Source: Tetradesmus obliquus
Taxonomy: Eukaryota; Chlorophyta; Chlorophyceae; Sphaeropleales; Scenedesmaceae
DNA: 64,000 nucleotides
Assembly (NCBI GenBank): GCA_030272155.1
Contig: CP126194.1
Location: forward strand, 7,106,001 to 7,170,000
Direction: 5' to 3'
The first letter of the stretch is position 1. Each line of letters starts with the position of its first letter. Under the pieces are notes generated by a model. It saw only the letters and a list, made by a program, of their open reading frames with translations. It had not been told where the DNA came from and did no database searches. The position numbers were made by a program, and so were the translations under genes. Of the stretch, positions 3,508-56,981 are shown one piece after another.

Positions 3508-6500
3508 ATGTTCAGCAAAGCAACCCACTGGCTGATAGACGGGCTTTTGCACCGTGAGCACCAGGCAGCAGCAGCCCATCAGGCACAGCAAGCAGCATCT
3601 GGCACAGCAGACAGCGTGAATGGCAAAGCAGCGGGAGCATCCAACAATGGAACTTGCTTTCCTGCTAGTGAGCCTGCCAAGGTGCAGGACAAGGTGAGGT
3701 GCTGTCCTTGGCATGCGGCACAGTCAGCACAGCCCCATCACAGCCCCATGCCTCACACAACAACTGTACCTCCACCTGCATAACTGGCTTCAGCGCCCTC
3801 GTAGTGGCTGCCTGCCTTCTGTTCGACTTTTTCTGCGTTTCTTGCTGCAGCGTGGTGATGGAGCACATGGACCTGCTGATGCACCACCCAGCACCAGTAG
3901 TGCCTTTGCAACTGTCAACTTGTGTGCAGCACCTGCGCATGCAAGCACTACATGCGCAAGCCCTTTCCTGGCATGTAGTATCCTCCCGGCAACCTTTGCA
4001 ACACTGGTGTGTTGCTCTGCATCAACTGCTGCACTGCGCAGCAATTGGTCGCTTGTTGCTGTATCTCTGCCCCTTCTGCACAGGCCTGCGTCCTGCAAGC
4101 AGCAACAGGCATGACTGCTGTCCCTTCTGCTGCCCGTGTATGCTTGCAGGATGCTGATGAAGAGCCTCTTACAAGCAGCGAGGAAGAGGAGGAAGACCTG
4201 CCTAGCCCGCAGCAGCGCAGGTCAGGCGATGCCAGCTACCCGCGCCTGCCCAGCATCATCAAAACACACCTGCAGCTCGGCAGGCAGTCCTTCAACCGCA
4301 CAGCCCCAAGCATCTTCGAGCTCAGCCGCAACAGCAGCATCATGGACAGCTTGCAGGAAGCCCTCAGCCAGGAGGCAGCTGCAGCGCCACGCGTATCCTC
4401 ACCAAACTTTGAAAGCAGCAGCAGCCGGATGTTCAGCCCACGCGTGTCTGCCACGCAGCTGGCAGCGCTGGACTCGTTGAGTGCTGCTGCTGCCTTCAGC
4501 CGGTCCATTAGCTTGCGGCACACACCCACACTGGCGCAGCTGCCTGCGCCGGTGCAGGATGTGCTGGAGAGCTGTGGGGCGCTGTTCATTGAGGATGGCA
4601 ACATTGAGGGGCTGGCAGGTGAGCAGCACATTGGGTCACTGGATGTAAGAGTGTTGAGTGATGGTGGTGTATGCGAAGCATACTATAGTCACGCTAGCAC
4701 AGCAGCGAGGCACCAGCTGTGCCTGCATTACAGTCTGCAACTGGGAAGAGCAATATAGTACAGCATGCCCGACAACTCACTTGCTGCTTGTCTTGTGCTC
4801 TGTCTGCATCACACGTATGCTGCTGCGTCAGAGGCCGCGTCTCACTTCATTGCGGAGAGCGGCATCACTGAGACCTTCTACATCTACGACCTGGGCGAGG
4901 TCGCGCGCCTGCACAACACCTGGCGCGCTGCGATGCCGCGCGTGGTGCCGCACTACGCAGGTGCGGCCGGAACTGTGTGTGGAGTTGTGCGAGTGACTGC
5001 ATCCTGGTTGGCACGCAGCACCACTGCAGCTCTATGCATGCTTTATTGAACATATTGTTGTTGTGCTAAGCCTGTGCGCTTGCAGGAGGGCACGTGTATT
5101 GCAGGCATGCGTGTGCTGTTGCTGCTTTGTGTTGCGGCTGGCACTGCTGCGCCCTGCAACCTACACATGTGCTAGGTCCTGCTGCAAGGCCATGCTCAGC
5201 ATGGTGGCACTGCTGTTCTCTACATGCTAGCTCAGTACGGCTGTGCTGCCGCTGCGCCGCGCGCAGTGAAGTGCAACCCCGAGCCGATGATGCTGGCCAT
5301 GCTGGCTGCGCTGGGTGCGGGCTTTGACTGCGCCAGCGTGATGGAGCTGGAGGCAGCGGCAGCGCTGGGCGTGAGCCCGGAGCGCGTCATCTTCGCCAAC
5401 CCCTGCAAGAAGCCGGCAGACTTCAGGTGTGCTGCTGCGCTGCTGCACTGCCTCACTGCTGCATGCATGAAAGGTCCGCCAGGGTGCAGAATACCGGCAA
5501 ACATCTGGCAATGCACTGCACGTCTTGCACATACCTCTTTCCTGCTTGCTGCCGTTGTGTGCATCAGCGCTCACATGTGCTGGCACGGCCGGCGCCGCTG
5601 GTGCAGGTATGCTGTTGCGCACGGCGTGCAGAGCACCACCTTTGACACACCCTCCGAGCTGCACAAGATTGCGGCGCTCAACCCGCGCTTCAAGTGCGTG
5701 CTGCGTATCCGCTGCGACGACCCCACCGCAAAGTGCCCACTGGGTGAGCTGGCCGTAGCACCGGCAGCGGCTGATTTTCCACAGCGGGGAGCATTCTGCG
5801 GGTGTATATGCCTTGCAGGACAAGTTCAACTTTGCCTATGGCACAGCTTGCAGCATGGAAATGGTGCTGCAAATGGAAGACAGGAAGCAGGGAAGGCCGG
5901 CAGCTCGCTTGCTCTGCCACGTTGGCTGCTACAACTTCTGTTCAACACGTTGCTGCGTTGTCAACCGTGCTGCTGCTGCCGCTGGTGCATGTTGTCATCT
6001 CACCCGCAGGTGCCAAGTACGGCGCTGACATGCCTGAGGTGCCGGGGCTGCTGCAGCTGGCACAGGAGCTGGGCCTGCAGGTGGGCGGGGACAGTGGCAG
6101 GCATTTCAGCAGCATTCTGCACTGCAGGGTCAGAATGTGCTGCCCAAGAGGGATAGCACAGCAGGCTGCAATGCTGAGGGTGTACATACACTCTGTGACC
6201 AGCAGCATGATGTGTTCTTGACATGTGTTTGAGCTCCATGCTTGCACGTCGATGCATGTGCTGTGCCTGTGACATGTCATATCGCAGCAGCTTCAACTCG
6301 CATCTTTCCTGCAACCTGCAACCATGCGCTGCTTGCTGCAGGTGGTTGGCGTGTCCTTCCATGTGGGCAGTGGTTGCCAGGACGTGTCTGTCTATGATGA
6401 GGCCATAAAGCGAGCACGCGAGTGAGTGGGAAGCTTTGATCTCTGCTGCTTGCTTAGCACAACAACAATCTCCTGCTGCTGTCAGTGGGGTGACAAAGCC

Positions 6501-8881
6501 GAATGATGAGAACATGTTACACTTTGCCTGCACACAGCAACATTTGCGGTGTTTTCCCGGGTTTGGTGGGTGCTCTCCTTAGTCCTGCACCCTCACATCT
6601 GGTGTTCTGCTGATTTCCTGCTTTGTTGCTGCGTCTGCGTGCTGCAGGGTATTTGACATGGCTGAGCAGCAGTACGGCTTCTCACCGCTCACCCTGCTGG
6701 ACGTCGGCGGCGGCTTCACCGCGCCGTGCGACGAAACCAGCAGCAGGCTATTCCGTGAGACAGCTGCCACCATCAACGAAGCACTGGACAAGTATTTCCC
6801 TGTCGGCTGTGGCGTGGACGTCATCTCGGAGCCGGGCAGGTGCGTGCTGTCAACTGTGAGCCCTAGTGTGCAGCAGGCAGGCATTTGTGAGGTCTTACGC
6901 TGTTTTACTGTTGAGAAGATTCAGCATGTACATACTGTATGCAGCATGCTTGCATGTGATGGCCATTGATTACGCGGTCGATGCATCCTCGTTTCCCGAC
7001 GAGTACTTGGCGCATGCTGCTGCCGGCGCTGTGCTGCCGGTGCTGCTGCTGCAGATTCTTCGTGGAGACGAGTGCCACGCTGTTCACCACTGTGCTGGGC
7101 CAGCGGCAGGGCAGGGACGCCTTCTCAGACCACGTCATGGAGTACTGGCTCAGCGACAGCAACCAGGGCTCCTTCAGAATCCAGGTGGGTACTGCTGTTG
7201 TTTGCAAGCTGGCCGGGTGACCTGCAGTCCATCCACAAGCTGTACAAGCGGCGGGCTTCTGCAGCACACGATTCGTCGACACTTGAAGGTTTGGTAATAT
7301 CATCATGGTAACAGCAGTCATGATAACAGCAGTGCTATGAATTGCATATTGCACCCACCCAGAATTTATGAAGAAAAATACGGCCTTGGAGTTTCCCCAA
7401 ATTGCCTGTGCTGCTGCTGCTGCTGTTGCTGCCCAGGTGGTGGTCGATGGCCTCGAGCCCAGCTACCTGGTGCTGCGCAACCCGCTGCTGCCAGCCATCG
7501 ACTTTGCGCAGGCAGAGCCGCAAGAAGCAGCTGCACACACCGCGGGGCCCAACGACAGCCCCTTTGGCCACTTTGAGACGCTGCACTCTAGCAGGCTCAT
7601 GGGCATCAGCGGCAAGGACAATGACAAGATCCACGCACGTGCACAGGTGAGCTGGATCTGTGTGCATGCAAACTTCTGATATCTTTTGTTTGCCAGAGCA
7701 GGGGTAGCATGCACACCTAGCGTACGGGCTGCCTCTGCATTACAAGGCCACGCCATATGTTGTCCTGCTTTGGCTGTGCACTGGCCAGTTTCCTGTGTGG
7801 TCCTCCTGCAAGCAGAGAGCCACACCAGCTTCATGAATCCTGCAAGCAGAGAGCTACACCAGCTTCATGAATCCTGCAAGCAGAGAGCCACACCAGCTTC
7901 ATGAATCCTGCAAGCAGAGAGCCACACCAGTTTCATGAATACTGCAGGCAGAGAGCCGCACCAGCGTCAAGTATCCTGCAAGCAGAGAGCCACACCAGCT
8001 GCATGAATCCTGCAAGCAGAGAGCCGCACCAGCGTCAAGTATCCTGCAAGCAGAGAGCCACACCAGCTTCATGAATCCTGCAAGCAGAGAGCCGCACCAG
8101 CGTCAAGTATCCTGCAAGCAGAGAGCCACACCAGCTTCATGAATCCTGCTTCCTCACACCTGATCTTGCCGCCTTGTGCAGCTGCCACGCCTGCGTGACA
8201 GCGACTGGCTCATGTTCCCCTACGCTGGCGCCTACACCATCTCTTCTGCCAGGTGCGCACAATGTGCTGCTGTGCTGCAAGGAAACATGCTGCAGCAGGA
8301 CGGCTGCTGCACTGCACAGCAAGGAAACATGCTGCAGCAGGACGGCTGCTGCACTGTGTTGACGTCGCAAGATCAGCACATATGTGTGTATACATGTGTA
8401 CATGGCTGAGTCTTGCGAATGTACGGACTGTACTGTGTGTGCTGCATCAGGTGTGGTGAGGACAGTGCTGCATTCACAACTATGTGCAGCACTCTCGCAG
8501 CACCCATGTCCAGGTGCAACTCTCATCGCCTCCCACGCTGAACACAATGCCCTTGCTGCCCTACCCTCTGTGCTCGACGTGCCCCGCAGCAACTACACCA
8601 AGGGCGCATTCCTGCAGCCCGCGCGGCTCTTCGTGTTCTCCTCCGAGGCCGACAAGGGCTGGGGCGACGTGCTGCCACAGGCTGCGGTAGTCAGCATGGT
8701 CAGCATCCCGCAGACCATACCGGAAGGAGAGGTGCTGGAGCATGAAGAAGAGGTGGCAATCGATAGCCTGCTGGCGCCGCTGGGCTCGCTGGGGCTGGAT
8801 GTTGGTAGGAGCGGCAGCTTGCAGCCGGGGCGCTCGATGCAGCGGTCGCTGAGCAGGGCGCCGTCGATGCCCAGGGGCTGA
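3508..8881 (+). CDS. Ornithine-decarboxylase-like protein, copy 2
   Basis: A PLP decarboxylase of the ODC family. Well-phased exons are 4150-4618, 4832-4960, 5267-5426, 5607-5743, 6010-6080, 6342-6421, 6648-6839, 7055-7184, 7437-7646, 8182-8252 and 8590-8881, together 647 codons. An upstream exon 3508-3693 starting at ATG 3508 is likely; a linking exon near 3850-3960 is uncertain. The protein begins with a long Ser-rich, acidic extension (SSEEEEEDLPSP) unusual for ODC. Then come FYIYDLGEV, the PLP-lysine motif VKCN (Lys codon 5269-5271), GFDCAS, IFANPCK, FHVGSG, DVGGGF, ISEPGR and GAYT. The catalytic-loop Cys-Asp of ODC is replaced by Gly-Lys (7611-7616, MGISGKDND), as in copy 1, so normal ornithine decarboxylation is doubtful. 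A regulatory (antizyme-inhibitor-like) or altered-substrate role is possible. The gene is a tandem paralogue of copy 1. Confidence 0.87.
7804..8143 (+). repeat. 34-bp minisatellite in an intron of decarboxylase copy 2
   Basis: About ten head-to-tail copies of a 34-bp unit built on GCAAGCAGAGAGCCACACC. Two variants are interspersed, one with CAGCTTCATGAAT and one with CAGCGTCAAGTAT. The array lies wholly in the intron 7647-8181 and ends about 40 bp before the acceptor at 8181. Confidence 0.92.
8278..8356 (+). repeat. Two-copy 42-bp direct repeat next to a splice donor
   Basis: The segment beginning CAAGGAAACATGCTGCAGCA at 8278 is repeated at 8320 with a 42-bp period. It lies in the intron that starts at 8253. 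Confidence 0.85.
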
Positions 8882-24575: not shown

Positions 24576-24600
24576 TACAACTCACTTCCTACAACACCAT

Positions 24601-24828
24601 ATCTGTTGGTGTGGTTTGCACTTAGAGCAAGCTGCCGGTGAGGTGGGGTGCCGTTGCGCACCGCAGTAAGACGTGTCTGGATATAACATGAGAGATTTGG
24701 TGCTCAAGGGTATGCAGTGTGTTTTACGGTGCTCACTATCATTTTCTGGTCTCCGACCTGTGTTCAACCTGGTGTGGCTCATACCATCCAAGATGGTGCC
24801 AGGACCCACATGTAACTATCCTCTCTCA
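24601..24828 (+). repeat. Interspersed repeat family R1, copy 1 (228 bp)
   Basis: Begins ATCTGTTGGTGTGG and ends ATGTAACTATCCTCTCTCA. It matches 56754-56981 over its whole length with a few substitutions, and partly 52061-52197, 58812-58915 (reverse), 26385-26433 and 33103-33137 (reverse). No coding. Non-autonomous, of unknown class. Confidence 0.9.
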
Positions 24829-25011: not shown

Positions 25012-28000
25012 GCGGTGACGGCTGCTGCAGCATTGACAGGGCTCCCGAGATCATCCGGGTGAGTGCAGATCTGGATCTGAGTGCAGATCTGGATCTGAGT
25101 CCAGATCTGGATCTGAGTCCAGATCTGGATCTGAGTCCAGATCTGGGTCTGAGTCCAGATCTGGATCTCAGCCCTGATCTGGTTCTGAGCAGAGATTTGG
25201 ATCCAGATGTTTCTTGTTTATGATTGATCCACATCACTCTCCAAGTGATACCAAATGCGCTTGGCTAGACTTGTTGGAACCGAACCTGATGCATGCATGT
25301 TGTTGCAGCAGAGTGACTGTTTCAAACAGCACTGCTGCAAAATGCGTACAATCCCTGCTATCAGCTCAGACCATTTCAATACCCACTGATTAGTGAATAA
25401 CGCACATTATAACATGCTTCTGCTTTCCTGATATTGCGTCCGCTCTGCTGCAGTACTGCTATGGAAGCGCACGCAACTTCTGCCAGTGGAGCATCTTTGG
25501 CTCGAACCTGACCCTGGCACCTGATGTTGAGGTGAGTTTCAGGCCTTGCTGTTGTGGCTATCAATCGGCATCAGGAGCAGGCAGTCCTGCTCCAGCCTTT
25601 GCGATTCCGTGTTATCATACCTGCTAGCGCACATGTCCTTCAACAAGGGCAGGCTGTGTTGACGTGATCACACACCACAAGCTGGCTGATGTGGAGTATG
25701 GGCAAGCTGCATTTCATGTGCATGATATATCATGCACATGCAGCCTATGTTCAGGAAGCCTTCTATGTTTCCAAGTAACACACTTGCTGCGCTCTTGCTA
25801 ACAATAGTTTTTCCTTCACCCCTGCTGCTGCCGCATATTCACGACACCCCGTCAACACCAACTGCCCCATCAACAATAACACCACCGACATCCCAGACCC
25901 TGACCCGCAACGGCAACCCTGTGACTGCCGGCCAGTACTCCTGCTGCAAGTGTGATGGCAGGGACTTCTGCCCCAAGGTCATCTACGCTGATGCTGCTGA
26001 CAAGGACTGCCCAGATGGCCTGGGCGGCATCAGCACCACTGCCACCTCAGGGCCTTTCACCGTCAACTTCGCACCAGTTGACTGCTGTGCGGTGGGTTGC
26101 AGTATCACCACGGCAAATCCCTCGGCTCTTCTTGTAGGCAGCGTGTTCGTGTTGTGTTGTAATGCTTGAAGCAAAATCCAAACCTACCCAACACAGAATG
26201 CCTTGCTCCTTGACCAGTCATGACCGTGACTTGGCAGCTTGTCCGACCTGCTGTTTGACTTGATAAAAGAGCTCTTGCAGTGAGCTGATATCGGACAGTG
26301 TCCAGACATGGTGACTATTTGAAGTCACCAATCCATAAGGGCATAGTTTGGTTTTCTGGTCTATTCATGCGTTGATCCTGTTGTTCATAGCGTCTGAGAA
26401 GGCGCCAGGGCCCGAATGTAACTACCTGCTCTCTTGTTAATAATATTTCTTTCAGGGTCACAGCCCCAGCCCATCCCCTGAGGTGCCTAGCCCATCCCCT
26501 GAAGTCCCAAGCCCATCCCCTGAGGTGCCCAGCCCATCCCCTGAGGTGCCCAGCCCTTCCCCTGAGGTGCCCAGCCCATCACCTGAGGTCCCCGGCCCAT
26601 CACCCGAGGTGCCTAGCCCATCCCCTGAGGTCCCAAGCCCATCCCCTGAGGTGCCCAGCCCATCCCCTGAGGTGCCCAGCCCATCCCCTGAGGTGCCCAG
26701 CCCCAGCCCCAGCCCCAGCCCCAGCCCCAGCCCCAGCCCTCCTCCAGGCGGTGAGTGCTTCCATCCTATGTGGAGTAGTACTCAGTACCTGTGACTAGCT
26801 ATATATACAGTGCTACTCTGCAGATCTGTACTATGGTGGACGATTGGTACAGCAACTGAGTGATGGGCTGTTGCATGCCAGTTACATTTCTTGTAAGCAG
26901 ACTGTTACATGTGGGTTCTCGAACCATGTTCTACTGTGTCAGACACAACAGTGTGAACATACCGGTCTGACACAAGGAAAGGAGACTGAACAAATGATGG
27001 TAATGAGCTTGGTGCAGCGGCATGCCACCTTCACCACTGTGCCATTTAAGCCCCATTTCCCACCTATTATACATTACATACATTACATTACATTATTATG
27101 TGCAACTGTGTGCCTGTTTCGCCCTGCAGTTTGTAATTTCCTTCCTTGTACAAGGACACACATGTGCGGCGGGTCAGTGCTGCTGTACACTTGAAATTTC
27201 TTTAAAGTGGGAATTTCTTTAAAGTGGGAATTCGTCCTGCGTTACAAAAGTGGCTGGTGACGATGAGTGCACACTCACGTGCGGCCATGAAATCTGCAAA
27301 GAAGCCAACTGGTAAGCACGTTTTGTGCTGCAGGGATCATGAGGACTGACAGGTGTTAGTTTGACTAGGCTGTTGTCAACAGGGTTCAAGTGCATGGTAG
27401 TGTGATTTCGCTCTATTAAAGCAGATACAGCTTGGCTTGAATGCCAGCTGTTTGATTGTACGGGAGCAACGTTTGTGCATGCGCGTTTGCCCGTGTCGTT
27501 TGGGTGCCGGTGATTCATCGTCCTGCGTGTGGATGCTGTCCGGGACGAGCGACTTCGATATAGAAAGACACTATAGTCACGTATATTCGGTGGTGCCGCA
27601 TCCCGTAGAGGTTCCTGTGACCACGATAGCTTCACCTCCGGCCATGGCAAATGGAATTGCAGTGGTGAAGCTGTTTGCTGAGCACGGTGTCATGGTGCCG
27701 GACGATAAGCTATCGTTAATGGCTGCAGCTTTGGACGAGCTGACCGCGCCTGGCGGTGCGTCAGGAGCAGCAGCACCGACGCTGGAAACCATGCAGGAGT
27801 ACAGCTGCAGCCCTGAGGGTCAAGCTGAGCTGGAAATCTTACGCAAGGAAATGTCTGATATCAAGGTATTGGTAGGGCAGCAGCAGGCCATGTTTGGGCG
27901 GCAGCATAGTCGTAGGGGAAGGGCGGGAGTCCCGTGACACTGTTACACGGTGTTAAGGCCCTGTCCTTTGCCCTCCGTTAATTCCGCTCCCTGCAAAGAG

Positions 28001-31000
28001 GGCGTAGACTCTTTCAACTTTTTCTTTTTTTGGGCGGCAGCAGGCAGTCATGGAGCGGCTGCTGTCCACCACTGTCAGCTGACCCCCCCTGTTTCAGCAA
28101 CTTTCAGCCACTGGCAGCTGGTGAATCCAGCAGTATTCAGTGCTGAATCTGTGCAGTTAATGTTACTTAATGTTGCTGAAAACGCTGAATTTGCTGAACA
28201 GCGTAGCTTTTTCAGTGTGCTTTCAGTGCTATTCAGCAGTATTCACTCGCTGCCGCTGAAAAATTCACCGCCAGTGAAAGCGCGCGATAATTCAGCAGCG
28301 TGTTTCAGCAGCGAAAGACGCTGAATAATCGAGTTTCACGTAATGATTCATCTCTTTCCAACCGCAGTTAGGCAGTACTGTTGTAGCAGCAGCAGACAGC
28401 CTCGCCAAGCTGGTACAGCTTGCTACTGCATGCATGGTGGGCTGTTGCAGGTCGAACACCAGCAGGCAGCCATCAGATAGCAGTCAGAGCGCTTGTTGGG
28501 ATGCAGGGCACTACCTGCGGCAACAAAAAGCAGAAGCAGCAGCAGTTGCAGTAGAAGCAGCAGCAGCAGCAGCAGCCTTGCTCATCAGCCAGTTGAAGAC
28601 ACAACACAAACCATTTGCCAGTAGGACACCAGAACGACTCAAACATCTTCACAGCTGCATCCTGCAAGCCTTGCTTCTTGTGCATGCCACGCAACATGCT
28701 TGGATGGCATGGTTTGCAGAGGTATCCAAGTGCACTGCAACCCGTTGACCAGCTCTGTCACGTCCCTTTATCCAACGGCCAGCAGCAGAGGCTTGGATGT
28801 GCTTGCCGTTGTGTTTCCCTAGGCCTGTGTTGCCTGTGCCCAGCGGCACTCGCAGCACTCGCACGCTACTGGCTACTGTGTGACAGACGGTCAAGGCCGG
28901 TAGTTGAGAGCAGGTTGGCCTGTGTGCCTGCTAGATGTGTTGTGCACATCATACCAAAAGATACGATGACTATGAATATTGTTCAGCGCAAAAAACGTGA
29001 CCAGCAAGAGACCCGACGCCTGAGAGCAATTGCTCTCAGTGCCGGACGGTCGCAGGCAACTGAAACCAAGCTCTTAAAAGCCGTTAAGCTGGTATAGAAT
29101 CGCCTTATATGCACGGCATGTGCGTTGCGTGAGAGCTTGGGGCTTAACATATGCTCCCAGGGATTTAAACCTACCTGTCTCGGTCGATGACTGCAAGGCT
29201 CTCCATATTCGCGTCTATTCAGCCTAATTTTTCTTAGACTGCATCATAGTGTTGACACAGAGAGCTTGAGAGCGAGCTGGAGAGCGAGCCAGGACTAAAA
29301 ACACTGAAAAATCAGGCGGGTGATGACAAATTCAGGGATACTCAGCAGTGAGAAGTGCTGAAAGTATTCGCCTAAAAATTAACCTGTTTTCACCCGACTT
29401 CAGAGGCCAGCTGAAAATGTCACCGCAGTCAGCAAAATTCAGTGTTGCAGGCGCTGAATTCTGCCTAATGTCTGCTGAAACAGGGGGGGTCAGCTCACAG
29501 TGCACGCAGTCCTTTTTCCCGCCTGCCTCCTCTTCAGCAGCAGCAGCGGCCGCGCCTGGCGCTGAGGCAGCTGCTGGGCTGGACTTCCTGCCAACGGACA
29601 CAACCAACGGCAACATCGCCAAGTCCATGCCGGAGATTGAAGAGCAGGCCAAGGGACTGCTGGCAACAGGGCTTCCTGCAAGCGGCGTCTCTGCTGGTGG
29701 GTTGTGTGATCTGCTGCAGGAGCATGAGCTGGGGGCTGGTGTGGTTTGCGGTGATGGTGGAGTGTCTGGTGTGGGTGTGCAGCACCTGGCTGCTGGTGGG
29801 CGTAGCGTGGTTGGCAGCGGTGCTGCTGCGGCTTTCGCCTGCAGCAGCGCCTGCAGGGATGGGGTTAGGAGTCAGAAGGCGTTCTATGGGGTGGAGCATT
29901 TTGCTGGTAGCGGGCTTGAGAGGGCTGGTCATGTTGAGAGCGTGCTGCGCGTGGAGCAGGGCAGCGGTAGGCTCATTGCGGAGCAGTCGCTGGGGTCTCT
30001 GCCGGCACGCACGAGTGTGTGCTCCGATGCGGAGCTGCTGCGCAAGCTGCCTAACTTTGTGTGCTGGGAGGATGCGGAGCAGCGTTGTGTCACTAGTTTT
30101 AAGGCGGCGGTTTACCTGCAGGGCAGCGAGCTGGTGGCATACGAGACTGTGTTCCGGCCCCGTATGCGGCAGGCTGCTGCGGAGTACATGACGGGGTCCA
30201 GCAGCATGTGCCTGCTGTTCCTCTTGTATGACAGAGATGTGCGGCTGAAGGTGTTCAATGAAAACAGCAAGCTGATGTTTGGGAGTACGCAAAGCGTCTT
30301 CAGATGGGGCACACTGGATGGGGTGATTGACTATAGGTTGCTGGTCAGGCACCAGTATGCGCTTGAGGCAGCCAAGGCTGCAGTCAGCAGCAAGCAGCCC
30401 AGCCCTGCCGCGCCGCCGCGGCAGGCACCGCAGCTGCAGATGTCAGGGATCAAGGACATGCTGCAGCAGCTGCTGGGTCAGCCACAGCAGCCACAGCGCT
30501 TACGGCGCGGTGCCAGCAGTGGAGGCACGGCAGGATTGATGCAGGAGATTGAGCAGCTGCTGCCGGCTGGTGTTGGCCGCAAAAATGTGTGCCTGAATAT
30601 CTGGCTGCATGGGACCTGCAACAGGCCCGAGTGCAAGTTTGCGAGCAAGGGCCACTGCTGCATGCTGTGTGGGGCGGCCAGAATGCTGTGTGGGGCGGCC
30701 TGGCGGGTGCGGACGGATAATAGCCAGGTGGTGGCATGGTTCATGAAAGGTGATGCGCCTCCTCACCTAGTGTCTTTGTGGCTGAAGGAGATGGCCACAC
30801 TGTCCGTGAAGCTCAGGTTCCGTATCGGGGCGAAGCACATCCCTGGTGCTGCCAACTGTGTGGCAGACGCGTTGAGTCGATGTGCTTGGAGTGTGGTGCA
30901 TACGCTACTGCAGCGCTGGGTTGTTTCACAGTCAGAAAATTGGCTGCTGGTACCTGACGCTGTTGCGCCTCCTTTGACCGACAGGGGCGGAGTGCTTCCC

Positions 31001-33647
31001 GCCGGGAGTGGCGGCGACACAGCCGAGGCTGGCGCTGCATCAGGAGGCGCTGGGCTATCTGAAGCATGACTTGGCTGACTCCACTCTGGGGCAGTATCAG
31101 CAGTCGCTGAAGTATGTGGTGCGCGTGCTGCTGCTGCTGGGTTTGCTGCCGATGCTGTGGGCCCCGCAGGAGCTGGTAGTGTGTTGAGTAGTGGCGTTTT
31201 TTGCGCGGTCCGCGTCTTACAAGTCCGTTGTGAACTACTTGAAGGCTTGGAAATACTTCCTGGGCGTGCATGGCTGGGATGTGAGTGTGTGGCAAGGTTG
31301 GCAGCTGCTGCCAAGGCTGTTGAGGGGGGTGAAGCGTGTGAAAGGCGATGTGGCAAAGCCCAAGCTGCCCATCACCCCGGCCCTGTTACTCAAGTTTGTG
31401 CGGGCGCTGCCGCTGGGCGGCCCTGCACTTGCTCTGTGGGCAGCAATACTGGTGGGATTCTTTGGCTTTCTCCGCAAAGGGCATTTGTGTGCGGACGGTG
31501 TTGGGCTTGGCCCTGTGTCTATGGCAGTGCTGCGGCGCAAAAACTTTGTGTTTGAACATGCGGCTTACTGTGTGCATATTACAGTTACCATATCAAAGAC
31601 CAACCAGTTTCGGCAGCGGCAGCAGGTCATCACCATTCAAGGGGTGAAGGGACATGTTTTGGACCCATACGCCTGGCTGCAGAAGCTGTTCACGTTGCAT
31701 CCTGCGGATGGGGATGCACCGGCGTTTGGTCATGTGCAGGGTGGTGTGTATGTGCCCCTGACATACTCTCGTCTGCTGGTGGGTCTGAAGGATTTGATTA
31801 AGGCGTGTCGCCTGGACCCCTCTGCATATGGTGGGCACTCGCTGCGGCGAGGCGGCGCCACGTGGGCCTTTCAATGCGGGGTGCATCCGCTGTTCATTCG
31901 CATACAAGGTGACTGGCAGTCTGACACGTGGCTACTGTATGTCGGCATGTCGGCAGCGCAGAAGTGTGCTGTCACGCGCATGATGCAGGAGAAAATCGCA
32001 AGCCTGCCTGGTGCAGCAATTTGAGTGAGGTGGGGAGTGGGTTGGGATGTGTGCTGTGTGCTGCTCAGCTGAGAATGCTGAGCTGTCACTGCTCTGGCGG
32101 CTGCTGTGTGCGCGGCACACGCGTAGCCTGCCCGCTTCTGGCCCAACCTCACTCATTGCTGGCATGTCTGTTGTTATGTTAAGTCAAGACGGGGATATTG
32201 TAACACACCTAAGGCAATCATGATCTGGTAAGCACGTTTTGTGCTGCAGGGATCATGAGGACTGACAGGTGTTAGTTTGACTAGGCTGTTGTCATCAGGG
32301 TTCAAGTGCATGGTAGTGTGATTTCGCTCTATTAAAGCAGATACAGCTTGGCTTGAATGCCAGCTGTGTGATTGTACGGGAGTAACGTTTGTGCATGCGC
32401 GTTTCCCTCCCACCCACCCTTGATACTCCATTGATGGGCTGGCATTTGCCTCTGCTTGACTGCATACCACCATGTCAGTACTGTTTGGGATGTGTGCTGT
32501 GTGCTGCTCAGCTGAGAATGCTGAGCTGTCACTGCTCTGGCGGCTGCTGTGTGCGCGGCACACGCGTAGCCTGCCCGCTTCTGGCCCAACCTCACTCATT
32601 GCTGGCATGTCTGTTGTTATGTTAAGTCAAGACGGGGATATTGTAACACACCTAAGGCAATCATGATCCCAGGCAAGACATGTGGCTGCATCTTCAGCTG
32701 CGCAGGTGGCAGCACCTGCAAAAATGCTGGTGGAGGTGGACGGTGCTTGGGAAGTGGTAAGTCCTCTGCTGCTGCTGCTGCCGCTGTGCACATTGGACTC
32801 CCTGAGCAAGCATCAGTGTGCGACACACACTCTAACACACTGGCACAAAGCAGTGACAAGCACGCCTTGCTGCAACCAATGTTCAACGCTGGTCCTGCTC
32901 ATTGTAGCATGCAAATATGTCGGCATTGTTGAGGCGTAAATGCCTAGCAGGCTAGCAACTTTTAGGTTTGCGTGGCTTCCAGCAGGTGTCATCTGATAGC
33001 AAAACAGCCTGTTTGATTACCACCCTAACTCCTGTATGACATGCTAGCTGTGAGCAAGCAGTACTGCCTAAGCACTAGTGCTGAACATACCTATGCAAGA
33101 GGATAGTCACATGTGGGACCTGGCACCATCTTTAGGTAGACTATGGACTCAGCACTTGCACCTCACGATGACATGCAAGAAGCTTTTGCGACCCACTTTG
33201 TTGATCCGGTCGATTGAGTCTTGCGCTAACGCTATCATGTTCTCGTGGTTTGCAGGTGTCTGCTGCTGCGCCGACGTGGACACTACTGCATGCACCCTTC
33301 AGGGGTCCTGCTCCTTCTGTGACAACCGTTGCGTCAACAACAACCAGCAGGGTGGTCTGTGCGTGGGAGACGTGCCATCTTTGGTGAGCTCCCTGTGTGA
33401 CGCACCGCTGCCGATTGCTCTCTACCCACGGTGTTCGGTGCGGAGGCATTCAGTGTAGTGTACGAGTGTACGAGTACACACTGCCGTGCCTCAGAGAATG
33501 CAGACAGTACTGCATGCACACATAACGCCTTTCCAGGCTGGCATGGGAATGTGTTTGTGTGCACGGGTGGCGTGCTGCTACAAAATCATTGACAAGTACA
33601 ACATGTGCGGAATGGGCCCCTTCCTATTGGTGTGTGGTGTGTGGTGA
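25012..33647 (+). CDS. Cysteine-rich, (SPSPEVP)n proline-rich extracellular protein, disrupted by a retrotransposon
   Basis: In-phase exons are 25012-25058, 25454-25531, 25897-26091, 26456-26750, 27251-27309 continued at 32669-32756, 33256-33383, and 33537-33647 (TGA 33645). Cys-rich modules (YCYGSARNFCQW, SCCKCDGRDFCPK) are followed by about eleven SPSPEVP heptads coded by a 21-bp repeat and then a (PS)n run. After this come further Cys-rich modules (CTLTCGHEICKEAN, KTCGCIFSCAGGSTCKNAG, VCCCADVDTTACTLQGSC, CDNRCV). The layout resembles hydroxyproline-rich glycoproteins of algal walls; the Cys modules are not a family I can name. The 5' end and signal peptide were not found. The exon at 27251 is split by a 5.36-kb element, yet its two parts rejoin in frame, so the insertion looks recent. 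Confidence 0.72.
25064..25205 (+). repeat. 18-bp tandem repeat
   Basis: About eight copies of GTCCAGATCTGGATCTGA with small changes. The array starts a few bases inside the intron after the donor at 25059. Confidence 0.9.
26385..26433 (+). repeat. Diverged R1 repeat fragment next to a splice acceptor
   Basis: GGCGCCAGGGCCCGAATGTA, ACTACCTGCTCTC resembles the R1 3' end (GTGCCAGGACCCACATGTAA, CTATCCTCTCTC). It ends about 20 bp before the acceptor of exon 26456. Confidence 0.5.
26456..26750 (+). repeat. 21-bp coding repeat (SPSPEVP)n
   Basis: About eleven 21-bp units with Pro/Ser codons, followed by a 12-bp (CCCAGC)n run. They code the proline-rich spacer of the surrounding gene and end at the donor GTGAGT. 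Confidence 0.92.
27310..27488 (+). repeat. PAT element repeat A1
   Basis: Starts TGGTAAGCACG and ends GCATGCGCGTTT. It pairs with A2 at 32226-32404, with equal length of 179 bp. Confidence 0.93.
27907..28028 (+). mobile_element. SINE-like insertion S1, copy 1
   Basis: An insert of about 122 bp is flanked by a target-site duplication TTTGGGCGGCAGCA (27893-27906 and 28029-28042). It shares GTCGTAGGGGAAGGGCGGGA and later blocks with copy 2 at 39347-39478, and ends in a pyrimidine-rich tail. Its 5' end is about 15 bp shorter than copy 2, as in LINE-mobilised elements. Confidence 0.8.
28070..29502. mobile_element. CACTA (EnSpm)-like non-autonomous DNA transposon
   Basis: 30-bp terminal inverted repeats, 28070-28099 and 29473-29502, differ at one base and begin CACTG. 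They are flanked by a 3-bp duplication CAC (28067-28069, 29503-29505). CACTR ends plus 3-bp target duplications are the CACTA signature. Both subterminal regions are packed with TTCAGCA/TGCTGAA motifs in both orientations, as expected for transposase-binding sites. The 1.43-kb interior has no recognisable transposase; short frames at 28434-29097 are unassigned. Confidence 0.85.
30700..31069 (+). CDS. RNase H domain of the PAT element
   Basis: RTDNSQVVAWFMKGD, then HIPGAANCVADALSR, match the C-terminal half of DIRS-order RNase H, which normally follows reverse transcriptase in the same ORF. Here it is fused straight to Gag across a duplicated TGCTGTGTGGGGCGGCC at about 30663-30702. This points to an internal deletion that removed the reverse transcriptase. 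Stop at 31067-31069. Confidence 0.75.
31040..32024 (+). CDS. Tyrosine recombinase of the PAT element
   Basis: The core-binding region begins in the frame overlapping the end of RNase H (HQEALGYLKHDLADSTLGQY). It meets an in-frame TGA at 31185-31187 and continues as FFARSASYKSVVNYLKAWKYF. The catalytic domain shows Arg in GFLRKGHL, HSLRRGGAT (HxxR), GDWQSDTW and Tyr in LLYVG, the full R-H-R-W-Y set. It would integrate a circular cDNA without target-site duplication. It ends at 32024, just before B1. The internal stop makes this copy defective unless suppressed. Confidence 0.85.
32042..32225 (+). repeat. PAT element repeat B1
   Basis: 184 bp, starts TTGGGATGTGTGCTGTG and ends AAGGCAATCATGATC. 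It abuts A2 directly and appears identical to B2. Confidence 0.93.
32226..32404 (+). repeat. PAT element repeat A2
   Basis: 179 bp matching A1 with about three differences. Confidence 0.93.
32485..32668 (+). repeat. PAT element repeat B2 (3' terminus)
   Basis: 184 bp matching B1. The host exon resumes at 32669 (CCAGGCAAGACATGTGGC). Confidence 0.93.
33103..33137 (-). repeat. R1 repeat fragment, reversed
   Basis: The reverse complement of AAGATGGTGCCAGGTCCCAC plus ATGTGACTAT lies in the intron 32757-33255. Confidence 0.6.
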
Positions 33648-36061
33648 GGCACCATCGCAAGGTGTGTGTTGCAAACTGCTGTGCTAGCATGGCTGTGCCG
33701 GTCCCAAGAGTTGTGAATGCATTTTGGCAGTGAAGCTGTTTTGCTATGTTTGCGGTATCACGTTGCAACGTGTGTTGGTGGTGGCGGCTTGGAAGCAGCC
33801 ACCGGCGCACACGCTGACACGGCTGTTTTCACAAGGTTTGCAAAAGGGACCAACAGCTGTGTGGATCTGGTGCAACAGCTTCAATGGCACAACTGCATTA
33901 CGCGCATCTGCAAAATAAAACAGCAGTACCCTGGGCATGCACAATATGACGTTACATGTCATTCCATTTGATTGGGGATGCGATCAAGGCTGGCGCGGTG
34001 TTTGCAGTGCTCTCAGGAGTGATATGTCTGAGGAAGGGATCATCATGATGCCGTGGTGCAAATGCAACAGTGTGTTCCAACTCTGCTGGGGACACATGTT
34101 GTTGAGATGTTTGCAACAACACGGCTTGGTTTGTCTACTACTACTAGTACTACACTGCGCTTCAAGTACCGCTGCTATGGGCAGCCTTTATGTGTGATGC
34201 ATACTGTCGCGAGTATGCTAGGAGAGCTACACACTCAATGCAGAGTGCAGCCTTTCAGGGTTTACTGCCCTGCAGGACCAGTTGGTGATGCTGTTTCCTG
34301 CTGCTGGCCTGGCATGGTAGAAACATGAGCTAAAGACTCGCCTGTGACATCAGCACAGTTGCTCTTTGGCAAGTTTCAGTTGGTTGTGGCTCCATCAGAT
34401 GGTTTCTAATTGTGCTGACGGGTGCATTGAGCTGTCAGCAACCTGGCTGTTTGCTCCAGCACAGGTATGCGGCAACCAGTTCACTTCAATTCTGATTGCA
34501 CCTCAGGGTGATGACAACAACAAGAACAACGCATGCCATGATGCTTCATGAGCTCAGTCTTCTACAGTTCCGCTGGTGTTTGTTGTTTTTAGACACCTTT
34601 TTCACATGCACAGGTGACGTGCTTTACACGTGCATGTTCACGACAAGTGCTGACAGCATTGCACCTTCTGGCGTAACACATACCAACATGGGTCACGAGT
34701 GATGTTGGTATGGCTGAATGGCAACATGATGATGATGGTGGGTCATGAGTTGTCTGTCACAGACACACACAGTGTGGGCGGTGGTGGCATGGGTTTTGAA
34801 AGGCATGCACAACACGCTGCACAGCCAGCAACAACAACACACCTGGGTTTTCTTCAGCTGGGCAGAAGTGTGGTTTTTGAGGCACTCTTCATGAGCTGTC
34901 TGTGTGATGAACATGTGCAGATTCCCGCGCAGATGCACATTAGTCTGCATAGAATGCTGCTTTTGCTTTGGCCGCTTTGAGAGGTTGCAGGGCACTCATA
35001 CTTCATGGAAGCTGCGCATCGTGCAACAGGTCATCCAACAGCTGGCATGTCATGTGGCGTTGAGTTCAACTCGGCTTGGGCTTGACATGCATGCAGGAGA
35101 TGCTGCAGTACTGATGCGTTGGTGCAGAAATGTACGGTCATTCAGCCAAGGAGTAGCGCTGTGATTGTCTGGAGCAGAGTCCAGACTTGGTTGTTGCTGC
35201 TCACACTACATGCCACAGCATTATTGCATGCGCATGCATGGTACATGACTGCATGCTTCAGCGTGTAATGTAAGGTGGCACCGGCTTACGATGCACTGAT
35301 GCCTATCATACACAGGTATCTGGCTGTCTCAGCTGGTTTATTACTACAAACAACAGGCAACATTTGAAACCGACGCAACAGCTCAAGCAGTCGTTCAGGC
35401 AGTGTTTGTGTGATACTCTGCTTTCACCAGGTGTGCGTACTGCAGCTCTACGCACTCTGGGCAACACGTTATCTGCTAAACAGCTGCCAGGCGTGCCGCA
35501 CATTTAGGTACATAATCTTGTGCAGCATATGGACAAAAGAAGCAGGCATACATCAAGCAGTAACACATCAACCACCTGGTGTTTGCTTGAGGTGGGCGAG
35601 GGTGAGGGTGAGGGGGGGGGGGGGGGGGGTAGAAGGGGGGGGGGGGGGGCAGTTACAAGTGAGCCCTGTTACGATTTCACACGGTATGAATCGATTCATT
35701 GTGATATCACAACAGAGTAAGCTCATGGTCTGAGGCCAGAGAATGTGCGCCATAAACGTCACTCTGGCCTGTCAAAGGCTCTCATGTATAGACACCAATT
35801 GTACAGACACCAGAGACCTCTCAGGTGCTCAATGTCATCCCACCTCACCAGCAGCTTGCTCAAAGTGCTAAATACAACGACTACCATGTTTAAGAAGGAA
35901 TTTCCACTAATCAACGGCCAGTTGTCTCAGGCAGCAGTCTTAACCCTTTAAGGGGGAGGTCCAGCGGTCACAACGACAACAAGCAGCACTACAATCTCAC
36001 CTTGTGCCAGGCACCATGCTAGAAAGAGCAGATCCATGGCAATGATTCAGAGCACTGGTTG
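33648..36061. other. Intergenic region
   Basis: About 2.4 kb between the Cys-rich gene and the convergent glycosyltransferase. Open frames have no homology or splice support. The only clear feature is the G-run annotated separately. Confidence 0.5.
35588..35650 (+). repeat. Poly(G) tract
   Basis: GAGGGTGAGGGTGAG leads into two long G-runs separated by TAGAA. It is a strong G-quadruplex candidate and a likely place for length error in sequencing. Confidence 0.9.
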
Positions 36062-55389: not shown

Positions 55390-56753
55390 GACCATATTAT
55401 ATGGAAGCTGTAAATGCTGTTCAGATGGACAGCTAAAGACGTAGTCTTGTCCTTTTTGTCCTTAGTATCCCGGTCAAACATTGCACAGCACGGCTGCTCG
55501 CCAGCCTGGCGCAGCACATTGCAACGTACATGCATGCAAAAGCTGGTGCAGTTTGAGATTGTGGCGCCAATAGACCCGACCTTGCTTACCGGCATGTTGC
55601 TTGGTCAGGAGTGATGGGTATGAAGTGTGCCTGAACTCCAGGCTGGGTCAGCAGAATCTGAGTTGCAGAGGCAGCAGGGCACAGGTCAGATGATGATGCC
55701 GGTCCTTGAAGCAAGCTAGATCAGAGCACCAACGCTTGCACAAGGAATATGTGCTGACCTGCCACATCTGATGAATGCGCCGATGCGCACAACAGAAGCT
55801 GTAAGCGGGCGATACCTGCTGCTACGCAGCATCGCAAACAGGCTGAGCATGTCTGGAGGTATCCGAAAAATTGCTTTTTAGCATTAGGTGAAGAATACAT
55901 GATTATTCGGCTGCCTAGCAAGCGCCAACGACCGAATACAAACTTACCTTCTTCTGCGAAGAGGAAATAGATGCACGCGACAGTTGCTTTGTATATCAAA
56001 TAATTCACCCACCTGTGCGATGCAATATCTGGCTGGATTGCGGCTGGGTGAAGGGGCGTCTCTGTAAATGGACCGCCACAACGCAGTTCGTTCCCAGCAA
56101 GGCGAAAGTGCGGTGCACCCGAGGCTTCCACATTTCGGTCAGCTGGCGGGGACATATCCCCTGCGAGGCAACTGAAGTACGCATTAGTTACAGTTGGTAG
56201 TACCACATGCATCAACGAGCGCAGATGGCTGGCACCTGCAGCTGCCCTCCTGCATGCAATGTTACTGCTGACTCAGCGCCGTTCGCTGATGAGCACTGCA
56301 GTGCACACGGCACTCTGTAGAAGAAGAGGCTTTCACAAGCAAAAGCACACAAGACCAGATTTCTGCATCCATCTCTGGTTGTCCGGGTACAGAGTGCTTA
56401 GGACAAGGTCACGATTCATGAAACATTGATCAGTTGATCAATGTCCAGCGTGCCAACAAAATTGTGGCCCATGGGCTGTAAAGTGAACGGCTCACCTTGC
56501 TGTCAGTCTTGTTTCTGCAGAACTAAAGACCATGCAGCAGCAGATGGCAGCAGCAACTCCTTGCAGCGTCTTGCTGCTGCTGTTGCTTGTCACCGCTGAT
56601 CATTTGTTTTAGTGACCACTCCACATGCATTGCATCAACATTATGGCGGCTTCGCTCACTTGACTTGATTTGGACTTGCAGTGCATGTGAACGTGTTGGA
56701 CTTGCAGTGTATGTGGAAGGTACCGGCAGCAAGCAACTTTGCGACAACATGCG
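55390..56753. other. Intergenic region
   Basis: A 164-residue minus-strand open frame at 55721-56215 has no recognised motif. Otherwise nothing seen. Confidence 0.4.
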
Positions 56754-56981
56754 ATCTGTTGGTGTGGTTTGCACTTAGAGCAAGCTGCCGGTGAGGTGGG
56801 GTGCCGTTGCGCACCGCAGTAAGACGTCTCTGGATATAACATAATAGACTTGGTGCTCAAGGGTGTGCAGTGTGTTTTACGGTGCTCACTCTCCTTTTCT
56901 GGTCTCAGTCCTGTGTTCAACCTCTTGTGGCTCATACCATCCAAGATGGTGCCAGGACCCACATGTAACTATCCTCTCTCA
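56754..56981 (+). repeat. R1 repeat, copy 3 (228 bp, full length)
   Basis: Matches 24601-24828 end to end with few substitutions. No gene recognised around it. Confidence 0.9.

Follow-up and report, generated by a model that had tools for sequence, protein, structure and literature searches.

The window, by which we mean the whole stretch of 64,000 nucleotides that was analysed (C4:7106001-7170000), carries a retrotransposon with split direct repeats and a tyrosine recombinase (YR) for which we favour, with some reserve, the following reading: it is a defective copy of a YR retrotransposon that is Ngaro-like by structure, and the shortened derivatives of its family elsewhere in the genome would be products of strand transfer at the end of the A2 repeat. 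Elements of this kind are already known; what merits a second look is the pattern of the derivatives. The parts of the window copy are listed below, with repeats and spacer taken from repeat self-comparison. As a ruler we used a natural copy of 5920 bp (L035), in which A1 lies at 2-180, B1 at 5294-5477, A2 at 5478-5656, the spacer S at 5657-5736 and B2 at 5737-5920; A positions are counted from the base before TGG, with the A end at 180.

27310-27488, plus strand: A1 repeat, 179 bp (TGG...TTT), left end TGGTAAGC
27489-27906, plus strand: start of the ORF1 gag-like region, matching the full copy L035
27907-28028, plus strand: nested SINE-like insert, about 113 bp and a T-rich tail, with TTTGGGCGGCAGCA on either side
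28070-29502, no strand assigned: nested 1433-bp element, 30-bp terminal inverted repeats (CACTG...), CAC/CAC target duplication (3 bp)
29503-30680, plus strand: remainder of the ORF1 gag-like region, with a zinc-finger motif
30680-30700, no strand assigned: internal deletion junction (ruler 1823|3952) that includes a short filler, copied from adjacent sequence
30700-30890, plus strand: RNase H domain remnant, limits approximate
30978-32024, plus strand: tyrosine recombinase ORF3, start set by the ruler
32042-32225, plus strand: B1 repeat, 184 bp
32226-32404, plus strand: A2 repeat, 179 bp, adjoining B1
32405-32419, minus strand: G-quadruplex-type motif GGGTGGGTGGGAGGG, exactly at the A2 end
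32405-32484, plus strand: spacer S, 80 bp, from A2 to B2
32485-32668, plus strand: B2 repeat, 184 bp, right end ATGATC

The sequence-only reading had described A and B repeats of these lengths in the interleaved order A1-B1-A2-B2 with B1 abutting A2, and the self-comparison confirmed this, with 0 bases between B1 and A2. Its statement that B1 and B2 are identical and A1 and A2 nearly so was likewise correct for the window copy (0/184 and 3/179 mismatches). The element consists of two tandem units, each with A on the left and B on the right: the long one runs from A1 to B1 and encloses gag, RT-RH and YR, and the short one is A2-S-B2. The sequence across B1|A2 is that expected of a circle junction. 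It had been considered beforehand that the repeats might be part of longer tandem repeats, yet no tandem array with a period of up to 500 within 26000-34000 takes in A or B. Among 8 inverted pairs none joins the element ends; the longest good one is the nested element and the rest are CAG-type or short internal pairs. A TATA-like TATTAAAG is present at A105 and may act as a TATA, and TGTAA near the B end is a further candidate for a functional motif.

The window copy is defective: its RT domain has been lost with about 2.1 kb of sequence, the YR frame has an in-frame stop at 31185-31187 (open from 31188), and gag is interrupted by two nested insertions, so that it is probably incapable of autonomous movement. 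The SINE-like insert has 14-bp flanking repeats; the best 40 of 67 candidates for its family in the genome were scored, window insert included, and no Rfam match was found for the family. The 1433-bp insert is DNA-transposon-like, and its first 331 bases have 38 genome matches, itself included. The suggestion of a recent insertion was thus only partly borne out, with 3 differences in 363 repeat bases speaking for it and the nested insertions, RT deletion and YR stop against it.

RT-bearing copies are present elsewhere in the same genome. In L035 three frames lie on the same strand, a 589-codon gag-like ORF1 with a zinc-finger motif, an 817-codon RT-RNase H ORF2 and a 348-codon YR ORF3. ORF2 and ORF3 overlap, which leaves no room for a methyltransferase between RNase H and YR, and none of the 3 ORFs gave a Pfam match to one, although a divergent domain could be missed. 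The full copy matched RVT_1 (E 6.7e-4) and RT_RNaseH (E 1.8e-3) in Pfam, both below curated cut-offs, and weakly a CCCH zinc finger (E 0.037); it also matched Ty3 Gag-Pol (E 0.0073). In an alignment of 6 YR proteins the residues R166, K207, H287, R290, W313 and Y321 are invariant, which we take to be the R-K-HxxR-H/W-Y catalytic set of tyrosine recombinases. A YR profile listed 17 PDB sequences, XerD (1) and Cre (16), at weak E values of 0.06-0.59, while the sole match of the single sequence in PDB was an unrelated chain (E 0.28). PF00589 (Phage_integrase) matches one of the six aligned members, not the window family's copy, and the predicted YR structure, with a mean pLDDT of 43.4, is too poor to be used. 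Viral-contig scans with YR and RT turned up no relatives.

By its structure the family is Ngaro-like and not Kangaroo, following the class definitions in the accessible excerpts of PMC4157794, PMC6681497, PMC9210276, PMC3266345 and PMC8547959 (citations here and below refer to such excerpts), where features of this kind are also called homoplasious (PMC4157794). The order is A1-[ORFs]-B1A2B2 with the internal repeats downstream of YR, RT and RNase H are found in other copies (below curated cut-offs) and not in the window copy, which has no RT, and the L035 ORFs show no methyltransferase. Ngaro-like elements of Cafeteria burkhardae (PMC8547959, in part) are alike in this order, in gag, RT-RH and YR, in the occurrence of solo AB repeats and in that no methyltransferase was found; the differences are that the host here appears to be a green alga and that many copies are A-end-fixed deletion derivatives, to which the excerpts do not refer. 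The earlier label "PAT/Kangaroo-type" holds insofar as the element is a tyrosine-recombinase retrotransposon with split direct repeats, but the type itself does not fit a same-strand YR, internal repeats downstream of YR and a methyltransferase that was not found. Kangaroo of Volvox carteri shares the split direct repeats and an algal host, but its YR is inverted, it has no zinc finger and its internal repeats lie between methyltransferase and YR (PMC4157794, in part), whereas the window family has a same-strand YR, B1A2 downstream and a zinc finger. PAT-like elements (Pat1, the echinoderm form) have split direct repeats and a gag zinc finger in common with the window family but carry a methyltransferase domain according to the same excerpt. 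It is possible, though we would not expect it, that the element belongs to PAT proper (DIRS group) and that its methyltransferase has been lost or has gone unrecognised: the split repeats are common to both and green algae are among the reported hosts of PAT-like elements (PMC8226300, PMC3266345, both in part), against which stand the lack of a methyltransferase match in the three full-copy ORFs and of room for one between RH and YR. The inverted terminal repeats and internal complementary region of DIRS1-like elements are absent. The window copy and the YR-only derivatives resemble Cryptons in having YR and no RT, but the derivatives stem from RT-bearing copies with split repeats, and a Crypton is a YR element without RT.

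The genome (104.66 Mb, 17 contigs) was searched with both repeats, and A and B proved multicopy with at least 40 scored matches each; among the B matches listed, 32 span all 184 bases, which speaks against a chance likeness. The B1-to-B2 spacing of 443 bp was found again at other loci. The chlorophyll a/b-binding family has 52 matches in this genome, which marks its owner as a photosynthetic eukaryote, probably a green alga. With end patterns, up to 2 mismatches being allowed, 44 A starts were located and 39 B ends; the reversed controls had 0 matches. Another A-end pattern had 62 matches but 5 for its reversed control, and loci were therefore counted from the cleaner A-start and B-end patterns only. 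These sort into at least 32 insertion loci, window copy included, all 32 of which were read; more decayed copies (e.g. L015, about 77-81% in B) are outside this count. The left end TGGTAAGC is intact at 28/32 loci and the right end ATGATC at 25/32 (L014, with GATC only, left out), both being intact at 21 loci, or 22 with L014. The flanks differ between loci and no target duplication of more than 1 base is apparent by eye. C is enriched at -1 (18/28, P 5e-5) and at +1 (16/25, P 1.5e-4), the P values being uncorrected for the 24 positions viewed. Judged from these sequences, ends and C-flanked targets would fit a circle that recombines at its B|A junction, the route proposed for such elements. 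DIRS1-like elements insert via a 3-bp junction without target duplication (PMC3266345, in part). Comparison among the loci at hand gave no usable empty site.

One array on C13 (L029/L030, 4679509-4696677) has the form A-int-B three times, followed by A-S-B. When it was compared in 9 pieces of 600 bp, those around ruler 1980-2580 being incomplete, the substitutions numbered 3 between units 1 and 2 (7 pieces), 13 between units 1 and 3 (8 pieces) and 19 between unit 1 and L035 (8 pieces). Origin in a single reverse-transcription round is not favoured, with unit 3 more distant than units 1 and 2 are from each other; later duplication of a unit would fit, as would a circle inserted at a B|A junction.

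The paired repeats of one copy carry common variants. Some of these occur in no other copy, as in L028 (A and B), L036 (A) and L021 (B), while others are also present in a few further copies (L020, L022). Differences within A pairs are 0 in 5 of 8 pairs measured and 3, 4 and 8 in the others, the 8 belonging to L022 and being inflated by an insertion in A1; for B they are 0 in 6/12 pairs and 1 to 8 in the rest. One repeat of a pair thus appears to be copied from the other in every cycle. Near-identity of the repeats at insertion is predicted by a published model (PMC6681497, in part).

Counting L014, both ends are present at 22 loci, of which 4 are without large internal deletion (L016, L022, L029/L030, L035; L016 has lost most of B2 and kept its last 9 bases), 4 are solo A-S-B (L009, L024, L027, L033) and 14 have internal deletions. 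In 12 of these 14 the left breakpoint lies at A174-181 (L011, L012, L014, L018, L019, L020, L021, L025, L026, L034, L036, L037), the exceptions being L028, which breaks at A139, and the window copy, which breaks in gag (1823|3952). L012 and L037 have the same junction in different flanks; they therefore count once, giving 13 independent junctions, and a derivative has therefore itself moved. Thus 11/13 independent junctions fall within 8 bp, or 10/12 without L014, whose GATC right end could be chance. With the window deletion left out and the 8-bp interval picked after viewing the data, a uniform spread over A alone would give 11/12 with P about 1e-14. The points at which the sequence rejoins vary (ruler 1726, about 2200, 3640, 4190, 4435, 4617, 4732 and four inside B), and 9/11 lie at or past ruler 3640, towards the 3' end of the long unit. 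Junction homologies are short (0 to 7 bases) and some junctions contain extra bases. At L020 (around 1700-1725) a run of 26 T sits precisely where A meets the internal sequence; it may be an untemplated tail added to a cDNA end. L037 and L028 have an open 348-codon YR frame and no RT. Splicing was considered as an origin for the A|internal junctions and set aside: the GTTT after the sole possible donor is retained in most of them, and inspection by eye shows no constant acceptor signal. No description of A-end-fixed derivatives was found in the accessible parts of the open-access literature.

We infer that the A|internal junctions are fossils of strand transfer, and the other accounts have to be weighed against their fixed A side, which lies far from the YR site and is not predicted by random deletion, homologous recombination, splicing or YR action. 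Homologous recombination within the A pair or the B pair, by which reduced forms would arise much as solo LTRs do, predicts just such products as the four solo A-S-B loci and the single-unit A-x-B copies, and solo AB repeats are reported for Cafeteria Ngaro elements (PMC8547959, in part); as an account of the shortened copies in general it is nevertheless unlikely, given that it leaves A|internal junctions with homology of at most 7 bases unexplained. We consider it quite unlikely that the YR-only derivatives move in the manner of Cryptons, as DNA circles excised by YR that leave solo A-S-B behind. The open YR without RT in L037 and L028 and the presence of both single-unit and solo forms would agree with this, but excision does not produce A-end junctions, and neither an excision product nor an empty site was found among the loci compared.

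Chromosomal deletion with end-joining after insertion would account for the short homologies and extra bases, and the RT deletion of the window copy, with its filler repeat away from the A end, looks like such an event. For the family as a whole it is very unlikely: breakpoints should scatter, yet nearly all fall at the A end, and one derivative junction occurs at two sites with different flanks. Not everything fits the fixed A side, the misfits being the window deletion, L028 (A139) and a copy of a second family (L049) described below.

Strand transfer at the A2 end, the reading we prefer, would work as follows. The element RNA would be reverse transcribed, and the B1-A2 stretch would serve as the template on which the ends are joined to form a circle, which YR would insert at its B|A junction. 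DNA synthesis through B1-A2 would halt at the A2 end as a strong-stop product, whose 3' end would be linked to that of the minus-strand cDNA, in many cases through short homology. That cDNA would normally be complete; where it had ended early, A would be joined to an internal point. The rejoining points of the 9/11 junctions at or past ruler 3640 are of the sort that early-ended cDNA would give. The proposed stop is analogous to retroviral strong-stop strand transfer.

A candidate cause of the stop is the G-rich tract beside A2, an idea formed after viewing the data. The minus-strand GGGTGGGTGGGAGGG tract is intact at 16/17 A2-S boundaries read (altered in L024), and with quadruplexes allowed, folding favours the tract (-39.8 vs -12.1 kcal/mol, RNA, not DNA, parameters). 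It is one of two equally tight motifs on the minus strand of the window, with two more on the plus strand. A stronger version, in which a G-quadruplex in the minus-strand cDNA after A2 is a programmed stop, the fixed 3' end closes the circle and the derivatives are misfires, is doubtful.

A second split-repeat family (loci L039, L043, L044, L050, L051) has shorter elements of about 2 kb, with an A of 435 bp and a B of 142 bp. Full copies of it lie on C7 and C12, and a copy on C5 (L044) sits inside the gag region of a different RT-YR element. Its B|A junction is palindromic (TACGTCAGCTGACGTA). In one reduced copy (L048) A is joined at 426/435 to an internal point and in the other (L049) at 103/435 to the B end, so that the A-end pattern is seen in 1/2. 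The G-tract is absent from the A2 end of this family, and it is therefore not a general rule.

For the related DIRS-1, circles are verified, but full experimental proof of the mechanism is said to be lacking (PMC5633606, in part); how an incomplete RNA yields a complete circle in this class is so far a model. A dozen A-end-fixed derivatives would turn it into a concrete prediction of the stop site and of which end is transferred, and if the programmed stop were true, the replication path of a retrotransposon class would be readable and testable from its fossils. The derivatives also offer a view of how RT-less, YR-bearing forms may arise and spread.

Other repeats were noted in the window. A 21-bp tandem array at 26465-26739 codes for SPSPEVP-like repeats and is followed by a CCCAGC array. 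A dispersed 243-bp repeat is present at 24586-24828 and 56739-56981 (93% alike), and parts of it recur near L019. Two repeat pairs at 188-732 and 6645-7192 have a nearly equal spacing of about 6.46 kb, which suggests a tandem duplication.
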